In this document: positions 56,835 to 61,759 of the stretch, in pieces
Layout of the letters: each line of letters opens with the position of its first letter
How positions within the stretch are numbered: the stretch's first letter is position 1
From: Runella slithyformis DSM 19594
Lineage (GTDB): Bacteria > Bacteroidota > Bacteroidia > Cytophagales > Spirosomataceae
Direction: 5' to 3'
Length of the DNA: 64,000 nucleotides
Assembly (NCBI RefSeq): GCF_000218895.1
Contig: NC_015703.1
Location: forward strand, 5,035,001-5,099,000
The notes under the pieces: model-generated
Told to the model about the DNA's origin: nothing
The model's database searches: none
The model's input: the letters and a program-made list of their open reading frames with translations, nothing else
Program-made: the position numbers and the translations under genes

Positions 56835-59093
56835 TCAATTTCTGCCATTGTTTAATTCAGTAAGCATCTGAGTTTCTAAATTCAACTCACTCCAATAATC
56901 GCTGTACATATTGACATTTTGCAAGAGTTGTTCGTGTGTTCCGGATTGGGCAAAAACGCCATTTTCCAACAAATAAATACGGTCACAAATACTGCTCAGG
57001 GTATGAAGTCGGTGAGTGATGAAAAGGATACCCATTTTGCTTTTCAGTTGTTTTAAAAGCTCTAAAACAAACTTTTCTGTATGACGGTCGAGGGCAGCGG
57101 TGGCTTCATCCAAAATTAAAAGTTGAGGTTGAGCCACGAGGGCTCTTGCCAATCCTATCAGTTGACGCTGCCCTCCCGATAGATTTACCCCTTCTTCCCC
57201 CACTATTGTAAGAACTCCCTGAGGAAAACTATCCAGAAAAGGGGCAAAACCATAACGCTCCAACCATTGAAAAGCTTCGGCGATTTCCTGTTCGGTGGTG
57301 CCGAAACAGATATTATCGACCACCGTTCCATTGAAAATGTGTACCTGTTGGGGCACAACACTAATCAATTTACGCCACTGCTGAACATCCAATTCTTCCA
57401 ATGGAAATTGTCCATTGACTCGAATTTGGCCCGCTTCAGGTTCATAAAAACGTTGAACCAATTGACAAATGAGGCTCTTCCCACCGCCGCTTTCGCCTAC
57501 GATGGAGATAACTTCGCCTTTTTGTAATTGAAAATCAATGTTTTGTAACAGCTGCGTTTTACCCGGAAAACGAAAGGAAACGTTTTGAAATTGAAGCGAT
57601 TGAAAATCAAAGGTTTGTTCTTCGTTGTTTACTTTTTCGGCTTTTACCTGCACAAACTCATACATCCGCTCAAAAGCGATTTTAGCATCATTGAGCGGAA
57701 CACTGATCAAAGCCAGATTGGTAACGGAAGGCAAAAGAGAGGAAACCGCTCCTAAGATGGCGGTCATTTCGCCTATTTTGATTTGGTTTTTATAAACGGC
57801 ATAAATGGTAATGCCCAAGACAACGCCGATAAAAACGGTGGCGGCCACGCCCGTAGAAGCCGATAAACTCACCTGCCTGGTGCCTGATTGATAGACCCTT
57901 TCTTGAAAACTCCCAAACAAAAGTTGGTTGAGATTACTGAAAAAGGCCTGTTTGTTGCGGTTCTTGACATCGGCAATACCCTGAATGGTATTGATGAAAT
58001 TACTTTCGCTCAATGAATATGCAACCATGACGTTGGTTTGGGCTTCAATGAGTCCTTTATTTTGACGATAAATCAACCAAAAATAAATCGGCAAAATCAA
58101 TAGACTTGCTAAACCCACTTGCCAATTGTAATAAAACAACAATCCGAAAGAGGCAAAAACCATCAATAAATCTACCAAGAGGTTGCCTGTGAGCATACTG
58201 ACTGTACTCTGAATACGGCCGGTGTCGTTGAGACGCGCGACAAAATCACCGATTTTGCGGGTATCAAAGAAAGACTTTGGCAGATGCAGCAGTTTATCAT
58301 AGAAAGCGGTGTTCATTCGTATTCCAAATTCTTTGCTTTGACGCATGAGCAAAAACTGCCGTAATACCGAAAGCCCAACACGGGCCAAGAGTAGGACTAC
58401 GACCAATACAGTAGATAAAATGATACGAGTGGGGTTTTTAGATGGCAGAATTTTGTCAATCAACTGTTGGGAGTAAATAGCCATTGTCAAACCCAAAACG
58501 GCCATCAATACACCCACGCCCGCACTGACGGCCAGTAATGGCACATCTTGGCGAATCAAATTCAAAAACCATTCTTTTTTGAGGTTGGCTTTATCGGCAA
58601 CTTTTATAAAAGATCCGTTGGGTTCTAATACCAAACAAGCCCCTGACTTCCAGTGCTTTTTAAGGTCATCTTCTGTCCATTCAACCACGCCACGGACGGG
58701 GTCGCTTATGATAAAAACCACTATCCCCATCCCTTTCCCCTCTGAGGGAAAGGGAGTTATTCCCCCATTGGGGGTTAGGGGGCCATACCAAATCACATAA
58801 TGCTGCAAACCGCCTTCCAATTCAATGTGCAGTATGACGGGCTTGCCGTGTTCGATGAGCGAGGGAATATCAGATTCGTAGCCATCGGCCTCAAAACCCA
58901 ATTGTAGAGCGGCTTCTTTGAGACCAAGCAAGGATGTTCCACTTAAATCAGCCCCGCAAAAGCGGCGTATTTGTTCAAAATTGCTATCGCCACCGTAAAA
59001 ACGCACCAACGACAACAGGCAAGCTACGCCACAGTCACGTTGGTCAAGTTGTAAGACATGGCTGCGTTTGATTAATTCCAATGAGGTGGGCAT
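56835..59093 (-). CDS. Peptidase-containing bacteriocin ABC exporter (C39 peptidase + ABC)
   Basis: 752 residues. N-terminal C39 peptidase: Cys21 in LDQRDCGVACLLSLVRFYGG, His98 in LQHYVIWYG, Asp131 in IISDPVRG. Residues about 105-124 between His and Asp are an extra loop encoded by a palindromic repeat (58721-58788). Six transmembrane helices occupy about 175-460. The ATPase has Walker A in VGESGGGKSLIC, signature NLSGGQRQLIG, Walker B in LLILDEATAALD and the H-loop in LFITHRLHTL. It should cut leader peptides after the double-glycine and export the mature peptides across the inner membrane. Its start is 2 bases after the microprotein stop. Confidence 0.93.
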   Translation of the reverse strand: MPTSLELIKRSHVLQLDQRDCGVACLLSLVRFYGGDSNFEQIRRFCGADLSGTSLLGLKEAALQLGFEADGYESDIPSLIEHGKPVILHIELEGGLQHYVIWYGPLTPNGGITPFPSEGKGMGIVVFIISDPVRGVVEWTEDDLKKHWKSGACLVLEPNGSFIKVADKANLKKEWFLNLIRQDVPLLAVSAGVGVLMAVLGLTMAIYSQQLIDKILPSKNPTRIILSTVLVVVLLLARVGLSVLRQFLLMRQSKEFGIRMNTAFYDKLLHLPKSFFDTRKIGDFVARLNDTGRIQSTVSMLTGNLLVDLLMVFASFGLLFYYNWQVGLASLLILPIYFWLIYRQNKGLIEAQTNVMVAYSLSESNFINTIQGIADVKNRNKQAFFSNLNQLLFGSFQERVYQSGTRQVSLSASTGVAATVFIGVVLGITIYAVYKNQIKIGEMTAILGAVSSLLPSVTNLALISVPLNDAKIAFERMYEFVQVKAEKVNNEEQTFDFQSLQFQNVSFRFPGKTQLLQNIDFQLQKGEVISIVGESGGGKSLICQLVQRFYEPEAGQIRVNGQFPLEELDVQQWRKLISVVPQQVHIFNGTVVDNICFGTTEQEIAEAFQWLERYGFAPFLDSFPQGVLTIVGEEGVNLSGGQRQLIGLARALVAQPQLLILDEATAALDRHTEKFVLELLKQLKSKMGILFITHRLHTLSSICDRIYLLENGVFAQSGTHEQLLQNVNMYSDYWSELNLETQMLTELNNGRN
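58721..58788. repeat. GC-rich double hairpin inserted in frame in the exporter gene
   Basis: TCCCTTTCCC and GGGAAAGGGA form a perfect 10-bp hairpin, followed by CCCCCA/TGGGGG and a GGTTAGGGGG tail like the purL element. It encodes the extra PLTPNGGITPFPSEGKGMGI in the C39 domain, keeping the frame. Confidence 0.75.
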
Positions 59094-59095
59094 GG

Positions 59096-59173
59096 TTAGA
59101 AAGTGGGTAGATTGGTGATGTACTTAATGACCCATGCAAGCAAGTAAGCCGCGAGTTTGAGAAGATAGTTCAT
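59096..59173 (-). CDS. 25-residue hydrophobic microprotein
   Basis: ATG at 59173 overlaps the thioredoxin stop as ATGA, and the TAA at 59096-59098 is 2 bases before the exporter ATG, so it is coupled on both sides. The peptide begins MNYLLKLAAYLLAWV, continues IKYIT and ends NLPTF. It is a single hydrophobic helix with three Tyr, one Trp and two Lys, and would lie in or on the membrane. It is not a double-glycine precursor. Possible roles are exporter subunit, immunity or assembly factor. I know no described family. Confidence 0.72.
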   Translation of the reverse strand: MNYLLKLAAYLLAWVIKYITNLPTF

Positions 59174-59688
59174 CGGTTTAGGTATTTGATAATGGCCTCC
59201 ATTTTGGTTTCTCCCACGTATTTTTTTGCCAGATTCCCATCGGCATTATAAATCAAAACAGTAGGTACGGTACGAAAACCAAACTGTTTATCAGCATCTT
59301 GGGGGGAGATTTGCGCAATGGTGAGCGAAGGAATCGTTTTTTGTAACGCATATTCTTTCTCAAATGACCGTAGCACCCAGAGGCGTTCGGTAGATAGCCA
59401 AAGCAGTTGGGCATTTTTAAAAGCCTGTGACTGTTTTTTTAATTCTGTAGCCTCATGTTGACAATGCTCACAATGAGGATCGAAGTAAAATAAGACAGTG
59501 GGTTGATGTTTTTGTGTGAGAGTAACGGCTGTACTATCCAACCCCCTCAAAGAAATAGTGGGCAGTTGTTGCATCTTTGTCTCTATTTCCTTTTTGTGTT
59601 GGAGGGTTTGGTACGATTGTACCAACAACCACACAACAATCCCGACCACACTTGTTAAAAGTGCTGCACTGATTATCTTCTTGTTCAT
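59170..59688 (-). CDS. Membrane-anchored thioredoxin-like protein (CxxC)
   Basis: 172 residues from the ATG at 59688, which begins the anchor helix (KKIISAALLTSVVGIVVWLL). The TlpA/thioredoxin fold shows FYFDPHCEHCQHEATELKK with the CEHC redox site and the cis-Pro in FGFRTVPTVLIYNADG. The active site faces the periplasm. In this cluster it could form or isomerise the Cys6-Cys38/39 disulfide predicted for the peptides, or help the exporter. Its stop overlaps the microprotein start by 4 bases; its start follows the upstream stop by 5 bases. Confidence 0.85.
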   Translation of the reverse strand: MNKKIISAALLTSVVGIVVWLLVQSYQTLQHKKEIETKMQQLPTISLRGLDSTAVTLTQKHQPTVLFYFDPHCEHCQHEATELKKQSQAFKNAQLLWLSTERLWVLRSFEKEYALQKTIPSLTIAQISPQDADKQFGFRTVPTVLIYNADGNLAKKYVGETKMEAIIKYLNR

Positions 59689-59693
59689 AAAAT

Positions 59694-60323
59694 TTAGGGA
59701 GTAAAACTTACTGTAATAAACATCACTACCGTTACCCACAGCACCAACCCCGTACCATAAGAAGCCAAAACCAATTCAAACGATTTGGCAAAATCTCGTT
59801 CGATAATTTGACTCACTCCTTTTGCTAACAAAACCCAGTAGAGAATCTCAAAGACATTCAGTAATTGTAATGGATAAATTAACCACGGCTGTACATTGGT
59901 GTAATCAAAAAAATGAAGAGCCGAGAGCGGATAAAACATTTGTAAATCTTGCAGCGAATAATCAGTTTGAATAATGGAAAACCACAGGATTTTTAATAAA
60001 GAAGGAATCAAAAAAACAAACTCAGCGTCTAAAGCGATTCCAAAAGCTAATTTGAAGGAAAACTGGTTGGTTAAAAAATATAAACCAATACTTAGACAAG
60101 AAGTAACTAATGTAAGTTTAATAAGAGTCAAAATAGGTAAAATAGCATAACTTATCCACTCCCATTGTTTACTCTGATTTATTATGTTTTCTATTTGTTC
60201 ATAGGTTAGCTGCTCGGCGAAAGTATTGAAATATAGGTTTTCTGAAATAAATAAATAGTTTGATAAAAATACCAAACCACTCAGTGCTGCAATAAGGAGT
60301 AAAAATAGGAGACGTTTGTCCAT
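59694..60323 (-). CDS. Multi-pass membrane protein of the bacteriocin operon
   Basis: 209 residues with about five hydrophobic helices (LFLLLIAALSGLVFLSNYLF; ISYAILPILTLIKLTLVTSC; LIYPLQLLNVFEILYWVLLA; ELVLASYGTGLVLWVTVVMF). I recognise no enzymatic motif; the pattern is YIP1-like only in a general sense. Coupled closely to the thioredoxin-like gene (5-base gap). A role in export or self-protection is likely from context alone. Confidence 0.65.
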   Translation of the reverse strand: MDKRLLFLLLIAALSGLVFLSNYLFISENLYFNTFAEQLTYEQIENIINQSKQWEWISYAILPILTLIKLTLVTSCLSIGLYFLTNQFSFKLAFGIALDAEFVFLIPSLLKILWFSIIQTDYSLQDLQMFYPLSALHFFDYTNVQPWLIYPLQLLNVFEILYWVLLAKGVSQIIERDFAKSFELVLASYGTGLVLWVTVVMFITVSFTP

Positions 60324-60554: not shown

Positions 60555-60749
60555 TTATTTACCCCATTTAGACAATAAATACACAATCCCTATTCCGAAC
60601 AAAAAACCTAAAATTAAATGAATACCATCAACCGAAGTTATTAAGGCAAGTATATTTTCATAATCACTTAAACCGTACCAAATAGAGAAAACAAATATCA
60701 TGAAGCCGAAAAATTGGTTAAGTTTTAATTTGAAAAAAATATTTTTCAT
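60555..60749 (-). CDS. Small two-helix membrane protein, immunity candidate
   Basis: 64 residues. Two hydrophobic stretches (FFGFMIFVFSIWYGL; GIHLILGFLFGIGIVYLL) are separated by an acidic loop (SDYENILALITSVD), and both ends are Lys-rich. Small cationic two-helix proteins beside class II bacteriocin genes commonly give producer immunity. It follows the second peptide gene after 109 bases. No sequence family is recognised, so the role is inference. Confidence 0.65.
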   Translation of the reverse strand: MKNIFFKLKLNQFFGFMIFVFSIWYGLSDYENILALITSVDGIHLILGFLFGIGIVYLLSKWGK

Positions 60750-60858: not shown

Positions 60859-61044
60859 CTATTTCTCATCCGTGATTCCACCGACACATGCAGCTGCCCC
60901 GACGATTACAACTCCTACTCCCCAAGGACCGAGAGCCCACCCAAAAGATAATGCTGTTCCTATACCAGCCAAATAACCAATACAAAATGACTTGAGACTT
61001 CCTGCATGTGTATTAGCCATAACCTCAATATTTAGTTTTTTCAT
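60859..61044 (-). CDS. Bacteriocin-like precursor peptide 2
   Basis: 61 residues. A 15-residue leader (MKKLNIEVMANTHAG) ends in AG instead of GG. The mature part starts SLKSFCIGYLAGIG and is rich in Gly/Ala/Val with GxxxG motifs; it has Cys6, Pro25, Trp26 and Cys38 followed by VGGITDEK. Cys6 and Pro25 line up with peptide 1 when both leaders are cut at residue 15. It is probably a class II-type pore-forming peptide made as a pair with peptide 1. Confidence 0.75.
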   Translation of the reverse strand: MKKLNIEVMANTHAGSLKSFCIGYLAGIGTALSFGWALGPWGVGVVIVGAAACVGGITDEK

Positions 61045-61137
61045 GATTTGTAGTTTTTGTAGTCAAAATTTTTCGATTAAAAATAATTCGAGCGGTTGCG
61101 ACCATAAAATTGGTAAATATGGCGTTACAATTATCTA

Positions 61138-61332
61138 TCATAGATAAATCCTACGTAATACAGACCCACCACAAAAAGTTCCTATAGAAGCACCAATAAA
61201 ACCCCATGTGGCAGGTGCTATAGCAGAGGTTGTAACAGCCGCTACAACTCCAATGCCTACTGCGAATCCACACGCAGCATCAATATCTCCTCCGTTTACT
61301 CTTTCCATTTGCAAATTCTCTAATCTCTTCAT
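61138..61332 (-). CDS. Bacteriocin-like precursor peptide 1 (double-glycine leader)
   Basis: 64 residues. The leader MKRLENLQMERVNGG fits the double-glycine pattern (Leu4, Leu7, Glu10, Gly14-Gly15). The mature 49 residues start DIDAACGFAVGIGVV, with Cys6, Pro25, Trp28 and Cys39-GG, and end in a cationic tail (SVLRRIYL). Hydrophobic Gly-rich composition and two Cys suggest a disulfide-closed membrane-active peptide. It is the first gene of the minus-strand operon. Confidence 0.82.
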   Translation of the reverse strand: MKRLENLQMERVNGGDIDAACGFAVGIGVVAAVTTSAIAPATWGFIGASIGTFCGGSVLRRIYL

Positions 61333-61537: not shown

Positions 61538-61759
61538 ATGGAAAAGAAGGAGTTACTGCATAAAATTGGCCAAAGAGTTGTACGGTTGCGAATGGTTAAA
61601 AATTGGAGCCAAGCAGATTTGGCTCGGGCGAGTTTGAAAGACCGTCAGAGCATCGAACGCCTTGAAAATGGCAAAGTCAATCCATCCGTGTATTATCTAC
61701 AGGAAGTGGCCAAGGCATTGGAAGTACCTCTACTAAAAATTTTTGAATGGGATGAGTGA
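61538..61759 (+). CDS. XRE-family transcriptional regulator
   Basis: 73 residues forming one helix-turn-helix domain: IGQRVVRLRMVKNWSQADLA, then SLKDRQSIERLENGKVNPSV and VAKALEVPLLKIFEW. No other domain. It is transcribed away from the bacteriocin operon and ends 20 bases before the right-hand purL repeat. It probably binds the palindrome in front of it and represses itself and perhaps the operon. Confidence 0.88.
   Translation: MEKKELLHKIGQRVVRLRMVKNWSQADLARASLKDRQSIERLENGKVNPSVYYLQEVAKALEVPLLKIFEWDE

Follow-up and report, generated by a model that had tools for sequence, protein, structure and literature searches.

Bacteroidetocins (class IIf), known from Bacteroidetes of the gut, are the described bacteriocins that come closest to the locus presented here. 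Their leaders of 15-16 aa are cut at GG and their mature parts are 42-53 aa long with at least two cysteines; 36 such peptides were assigned to 35 regions, for which the absence of an obvious immunity protein is stated (PMC6671954). Activity was attenuated upon deletion of the TM, peptide or oxidoreductase gene, the four genes together were reported to confer toxin activity on E. coli, and further peptides with at least two cysteines and similar ancillary genes are described as present in four classes of Bacteroidetes (PMC6671954). BamA has been reported as the bacteroidetocin target (PMC8546649), and class II candidates in Bacteroidota have been treated in a commentary on a genome-mining survey (PMC12648078).

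The window, by which we mean the whole stretch of 64,000 nucleotides of Runella slithyformis DSM 19594 that was analysed, lies on a 6.57-Mb contig in a 6.92-Mb genome. It contains two small peptide genes, A and B, followed on the minus strand by genes for a small membrane protein, a TM protein, an oxidoreductase and a PCAT, in that order, with a divergent gene on the other side:

61538..61759, plus strand: HTH_3 (Xre-type) protein by Pfam, 73 aa, divergent, possible regulator
61138..61332, minus strand: precursor B, 64 aa; 15-aa leader ending GG, mature part 49 aa with Cys6 and Cys39
60859..61044, minus strand: precursor A, 61 aa; 15-aa leader ending AG, mature part 46 aa with Cys6 and Cys38
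60555..60749, minus strand: 64-aa hydrophobic protein between the precursors and the five-helix protein, candidate immunity protein
59694..60323, minus strand: membrane protein of 209 aa, five long helices in its structure model; by homology the counterpart of the bacteroidetocin TM protein
59170..59688, minus strand: thioredoxin-like thiol oxidoreductase with an N-terminal membrane anchor and CEHC; AhpC-TSA and Thioredoxin above cut-off; the start is a chosen ATG in a frame open from GTG 59739
56835..59093, minus strand: C39 peptidase/ABC exporter (PCAT), 752 aa; Peptidase_C39, ABC_membrane and ABC_tran above cut-off

As in the bacteroidetocin regions, a TM protein, a thiol oxidoreductase and a C39 ABC exporter stand together in one region, and A and B likewise have 15-aa leaders of the double-glycine type, mature lengths of 46 and 49 aa that fall inside the range of 42-53 aa, and at least two cysteines. 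The window differs in having two peptides, each with two cysteines at the ends of a hydrophobic loop, and in adding a small membrane ORF where the described regions have no obvious immunity protein. The genes, leaders, domains, cassette homology, cysteine pattern and recurrence of pairs are observed directly. On the strength of these sequence features we predict that A and B probably constitute a paired, disulfide-stapled, membrane-active bacteriocin, handled by machinery of the bacteroidetocin kind.

Precursors A and B and their export cassette

Precursor A consists of the leader MKKLNIEVMANTHAG and the mature part SLKSFCIGYLAGIGTALSFGWALGPWGVGVVIVGAAACVGGITDEK, in which Cys occupies positions 6 and 38, Pro position 25 and GG positions 40-41. 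Precursor B consists of the leader MKRLENLQMERVNGG and the mature part DIDAACGFAVGIGVVAAVTTSAIAPATWGFIGASIGTFCGGSVLRRIYL, with Cys at 6 and 39, Pro at 25 and GG at 40-41. The preliminary description of this DNA had reported two ORFs here with 15-residue leaders, one ending GG and the other AG, and had noted that a cut at residue 15 brings Cys6 and Pro25 into line and puts the second Cys at 38 or 39, with a GG motif after it; we find the same, with both ORFs on the minus strand, the GG leader belonging to B and the AG leader to A. When scored with a matrix of 78 leaders drawn from other loci only, A and B reach 29.0 and 29.4; three of the 78 are regulator tails, and the search that originally yielded the 78 used an initial 42-leader matrix to which A and B had contributed. 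The next-best score among the 342 ATG starts of the window is 6.7 and the best in the reversed window is 0.3, so that the two leaders stand far above chance expectation. An AG ending rather than GG, as in A, is shared by a few relatives (L098:8173, L096:6187).

The mature peptides A and B have mean hydropathies of +1.05 and +1.16 and net charges of about -0.6 and -0.3. GxxxG motifs start at positions 8 and 20 of A and at 7, 32 and 36 of B. A structure model of A, of low confidence (pLDDT 58), shows two helices, the turn falling at precursor residues 34-38. Neither peptide has a clear homologue outside the host genome, the best E values being 0.003 for A (in a frame with stops) and 4.6e-4 for B, whose top two matches are to leaders and portions of precursors from other cassettes. 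Searches of genome contigs with A and with the 209-aa protein gave no named relatives.

The two-peptide bacteriocins of Gram-positive bacteria (class IIb) resemble the window in their adjacent genes, double-glycine leaders, C39 exporter and Gly-rich hydrophobic peptides with GxxxG. The window differs from them in its accessories, a five-TM protein and an oxidoreductase, and in its Bacteroidota host. Class IIb peptides are usually cationic; A and B are not. Bacteriocin family models reach B only below their thresholds and A not at all: A has no Pfam match, B scores 17 bits with Pfam Bacteriocin_IIc (gathering cut-off 27.1) and 10.2 bits with NCBIfam TIGR03949, the lactobin A/cerein 7B family (cut-off 21.5), and A gives no score with the latter. 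The motif YGNGVxC, printed in PMC6671954 as that of the pediocin-like class IIa, is absent from A and B by reading.

Within the cassette, all of the 25 NCBIfam models listed for the exporter fall under their own cut-offs, the best being TIGR01193 (peptide cleavage/export ABC transporter) with 348 bits out of the 524 needed. The 209-aa protein has no Pfam match, and its model, with five long helices and a mean pLDDT of 93.9, retrieved no PDB match at E ≤ 0.001 in a fold search. Two copies of the promoter motif TTTG-N-TANNTTTG are present in the window, neither of them before B, and shuffled sequence contains about as many; sigma-70-like and terminator-like sites are close to background. Peptidase_C39 matches in the host genome amount to 14 rows on the main contig, or about 12 genes (two being split over two rows), and this number suggests that more peptides may be exported than those of its three cassettes.

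Distribution of the cassette and its relation to bacteroidetocin loci

Of the 222 genomes searched from the host's taxonomic family, 30, spread over 10 of 36 genera, contain a match to the 209-aa protein at E ≤ 0.001. The 38 match rows correspond to 36 separate places, three of them in the window's own genome; these 36 comprise the window and 35 other stretches, each place being a whole stretch of 10-19 kb, with a few precursors sitting 1-2 kb off the cassette or beyond the exporter. Exporter sequence is present at all 36 places (at L121 as a fragment only) and a thioredoxin-like gene at 33. At several places the exporter, oxidoreductase or membrane genes are split or truncated (e.g. L099, L104, L111, L116, L120, L121, L122).

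When the search was extended to the taxonomic class with an alignment of the 209-aa family (A1, 23 rows), 20 of 395 genomes matched at E ≤ 1e-4. This gave 21 new places, of which 15 were examined. Precursors were kept for seven of these and for none of the other eight (one candidate, at L160, was below threshold). An exporter is found in seven, a weak half-size C39 protein only in three and neither in five, one of which is a 4.6-kb contig; an oxidoreductase is found in six, with L164 and L166 among those lacking it. Outside the host family, the 209-aa protein often occurs without the rest of the cassette.

Three of these more distant places tie the cassette to the bacteroidetocins. The profile of the 209-aa family matches the TM proteins at L163, L164 and L166 with E values of 5e-21, 1e-24 and 2e-22 among the ORFs of the 15 stretches, and of 2e-19, 8e-22 and 5e-20 in the whole genomes. 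These TM proteins adjoin peptides with four cysteines that start KFWG or KFFG after GG or GS. The window's oxidoreductase and exporter match their L163 counterparts with E values of 2e-8 and 3e-109, and the gene order at L163 (TM, peptide, oxidoreductase, exporter) is the published one. We infer from the peptide and the gene order, which fit the published description, that L163 is a bacteroidetocin locus. In a midpoint-rooted tree of 25 exporters, 23 cassette exporters, including those of L163 and L166, separate from two other C39 exporters of the same genome with a support of 0.97, a weak result given that a filter left out three further exporters of that genome and the exporter of L107.

The likeness of the machinery does not extend to the cargo. 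Mean hydropathy is -1.21 and -0.62 for the four-cysteine peptides of L163 and L164, as opposed to the clearly positive values of A and B, and A and B differ from the bacteroidetocin-like peptides of L163, L164 and L166 in composition and cysteine number, in a comparison that covers the peptides of these three loci. Judged by sequence, the cassettes of the host family use the same machinery as the described bacteroidetocin set for a different cargo, namely hydrophobic two-cysteine loops, often paired, versus polar peptides with four cysteines. The preliminary description had called the bacteriocin undescribed and had made this dependent on its belonging to no described family. That view has to be narrowed: the machinery is that of the bacteroidetocins (PMC6671954), so that novelty can lie at most in the peptide pair.

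Against a plasmid collection, the 209-aa protein gave a single match, in Flammeovirga pectinis (Cytophagales), and the L163 oxidoreductase a distant ResA only. The plasmid concerned (NZ_CP034564.1) carries a cassette with a redoxin, an exporter and a GG peptide; next comes a LanC-family gene, which suggests that this exporter set can be combined with lanthionine chemistry.

Pairing, small membrane proteins and regulators among the relatives

Precursors at the related places were sought by their leader alone, not by cysteine. The 42-leader matrix gave 80 hits, of which six were dropped (five inside regulator genes, and L168:6715, which is no precursor), and six were added by eye. After removal of three regulator tails (L116:5718, L117:5810, L114:3383), the 64 rows of the family leave 61 precursors; these are not independent, as some come from close relatives (e.g. 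L124/L125 and L112/L113/L120/L121). There is at least one precursor at each of the 36 places, and all 61 have at least two cysteines in the mature part (two in 55, three in 2, four in 4). A hydrophobic closed loop, defined as at least 18 residues of mean hydropathy above 0.7 between the first and last Cys, is found in 53 of the 61. In these 53 loop peptides GxxxG occurs 86 times, against 63.9 +/- 6.6 in shuffles, a count reached by 1 of 1000 shuffles, the peptides being partly related. Of 58 precursors taken from the 80 for family searches (alignment A3), six match Bacteriocin_IIc at E ≤ 0.01, the best at 1.1e-8, and one matches TIGR03949 at this threshold; single precursors match other bacteriocin models, such as lactococcin G-beta.

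The matched register of A and B is not a property of the family. Loop peptides of different loci share the first Cys, a Pro index and, give or take one residue, the last Cys in 6 of 1353 comparisons; within loci 2 of 25 comparisons show this, namely A/B and the pair of L063. First cysteines lie anywhere from 1 to 20 and last cysteines from 28 to 54 in the 53 loop peptides. We have for these reasons rejected Cys6/Pro25/Cys38-39 as a family signature. Homology between A and B was rejected as well, their Smith-Waterman Z of -0.4 not rising above shuffles, and the coincidence in register is thus not due to detectable homology; it may reflect matched lengths in some pairs. What survives of the paired bacteriocin put forward in the preliminary description is the prediction itself, which draws on double-glycine-type leaders, a cognate C39 exporter, a CxxC oxidoreductase and pairs that recur in relatives, without the exact register.

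Two loop peptides are present at 16 of the 36 places and three at another 3, so that paired homologues, which the preliminary description had suggested looking for, do occur at 19 places; one loop peptide is found at 12 places and none at 5. Pairing appears to be common and sometimes conserved; a solitary loop peptide at 12 of the 31 places that hold any shows that it is not obligatory. The other two cassettes of the host genome, L096 and L097, have three passing loop peptides each, and in both the third of these, a leader-bearing two-cysteine small ORF, lies between the thioredoxin and exporter genes (L096:6187-6348, L097:5933-6091).

Conservation of pairs was assessed on mature sequences without their leaders. 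Four comparisons show both members recognisable at Z ≥ 5: L100 with L102, L098 with L120, L110 with L113, and L100 with L106. The last comparison is between genera (g5 vs g3, Z 12.0 and 9.0), as is that of L096 with L104 (g1 vs g17), where Z is 12.7 and 4.2. By this measure one pair appears to be kept clearly across genera (L100/L106) and one marginally (L096/L104). At Z ≥ 5, at least one peptide type is common to 27 locus pairs and both members to 4 of these, although many of the 27 include a locus with a single peptide. Only one peptide is common to L097/L115, L110/L111, L111/L113, L102/L106 and more, and a third peptide type is common to L112, L113, L120 and L121.

Such data bear on whether A and B work together. 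They could be two independent single-peptide bacteriocins that use a common exporter, each killing alone without synergy, in which case the places with a solitary loop peptide, the dissimilarity of A and B, and loci such as L097/L115 and L110/L111, where one type is shared while the partners are unmatched at Z ≥ 5, would be readily understood. The joint retention of both members in L100/L102, L100/L106, L098/L120, L110/L113 and probably L096/L104 is harder to reconcile with independence, which we consider rather unlikely, and we continue to favour joint action of A and B. Two genes per cassette are not peculiar to the loop type, given that L166 has two peptides with four cysteines; these lie side by side (L166:5501-5920) and are bacteroidetocin-like, in a locus without a thiol oxidoreductase. 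Another cassette outside the host family is preceded by six GG-leader peptides in a row, five of them with four cysteines (L156:4903-6306).

Small membrane ORFs of 49-84 residues were picked by eye near the precursors at 25 of the 36 places, mostly between the precursors and the 209-aa gene and in a few cases beyond the precursors. They match each other in 7 of 13 locus pairs with matching peptides versus 11 of 287 without (Fisher p 1e-6, with related genomes and pairs that are non-independent), and the matched pairs and small membrane ORFs come mostly from related genomes. By these comparisons the small membrane ORF appears to follow the peptide type. The 64-aa protein of the window has no clear relative among these ORFs (best Z 4.2).

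A pair of Gly-rich peptides next to a small membrane protein also recalls Cdz of Caulobacter, a Gram-negative system with two small Gly-rich secreted proteins and a small transmembrane immunity protein (PMC5380434). A and B could by this analogy remain bound to the cell surface and kill upon contact, rather than diffuse, and their strong hydrophobicity and glycine content would suit such a mode. The peptides of the window are shorter and are closed by two cysteines, while CdzC and CdzD are proteins of 86 and 84 aa with extended glycine zippers, for which the relevant part of the report mentions no disulfide loop (PMC5380434); the window moreover has the five-TM protein and the oxidoreductase. 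No second type I secretion component comparable to CdzB was recognised nearby in the clusters common to at least three places, of which one sequence per cluster was read. Surface-bound killing strikes us as very improbable, and a diffusible toxin is the reading that we retain.

HTH proteins lie near other cassettes too (clusters c3, c4 and c15). In a number of them the protein ends in a leader-like tail, GG and 9-33 further residues. Such tails occur in cluster c4 (L103:10367-10696, L104, L111, L116, L117, L122, L123, L063:10653-10967, L115) and in short LuxR-type members of c3 (L110:8599-9042, L113, L121, L112). With the leader matrix, which includes three such tails, 9 of 12 c4 proteins score 17-36; among the 15 c3 proteins, scores of 24-30 are reached by three and 19 by one more, which ends GV, and two others have scores of 13-15 that lie inside the HTH domain and represent background. 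The best non-precursor among 453 other proteins scores 15.4. The tailed HTH proteins are possibly cleavable pheromones or regulators that sense the exporter; the window's own HTH protein has no leader-like tail.

It is tempting to read these regulators, together with the fact that C39 exporters also carry quorum signals (PMC6363468), as a hint that A and B are pheromones and the exporter a device for cell-cell communication. Mature peptides of 46-49 residues that are membrane-like and highly variable between relatives would fit a toxin better, and homologous machinery has been proven for toxins (PMC6671954). A signalling role consequently seems improbable to us, and we hold to a toxin.

Other genes accompany the cassette at some places. 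A glycosyltransferase gene (cluster c5; L063:9274-10614 and eight further loci) is near it at 9 of the 36 places, either ahead of the precursors or on the far side of the exporter, with PF00201 in the one member scanned; some peptides might accordingly be glycosylated, or the enzyme might serve resistance. At five loci (cluster c8; L103:2115-4225, L104, L111, L119, L127) an extra ABC ATPase of about 250 aa and a membrane-like protein of about 450 aa stand by the cassette, and this ABC pair is a possible self-protection exporter.

Predicted mode of action and significance

Cleavage, disulfide formation, killing, synergy and immunity are the inferred part of the model, which would run as follows. 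The C39 domain of the exporter would cut A and B after residue 15, and the exporter would then move the 46- and 49-residue peptides out, as the motifs and the studied bacteroidetocin region suggest. The CxxC protein would make one disulfide in each peptide, and the hydrophobic loop thus closed, 31-32 residues long, would form a helical hairpin, a shape suggested by the low-confidence model of A only. By analogy with its counterpart for bacteroidetocin B, the five-helix protein would be an export or maturation partner needed for full activity. The two hairpins would most likely cooperate in the membrane of a competitor, held against each other by small-residue (GxxxG) contacts, and the producer itself would most likely be shielded by the 64-aa membrane protein. 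Being hydrophobic and of near-zero charge, such a peptide may need a receptor to cross the outer membrane.

How much of this is new can be delimited. Among the titles and abstracts surveyed, none describes bacteriocin pairs served by this machinery; further peptides are listed in Fig. 8 and the supplements of PMC6671954. As peptides with at least two cysteines (PMC6671954) and class II candidates (PMC12648078) are known from these sources, single peptides of the sort of A and B may already be listed. The described bacteroidetocins have almost all one peptide per region and no obvious immunity gene. What is probably new, judging from the sequences compared here, is the use of bacteroidetocin machinery for a paired, hydrophobic cargo with predicted disulfide loops, together with possible immunity genes.

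One may go further and speculate that the Bacteroidota hold a large class of true two-peptide bacteriocins, made up of hydrophobic hairpins with one disulfide each, bacteroidetocin machinery and a small membrane protein that co-evolves and gives immunity, joined in many relatives by HTH regulators whose leader-mimicking C-terminal tails are cut by the same exporter. This wider picture is a tentative one, and we put less trust in it than in the pair itself. For export machinery of the bacteroidetocin type, candidate immunity genes would be at hand in the small membrane ORFs. If paired killing and the immunity genes are true, they would widen the known arsenal of diffusible toxins in the Bacteroidota, would place another two-peptide system beside Cdz in Gram-negative bacteria, and would provide a test case for how pairs of membrane-active peptides cross the outer membrane.
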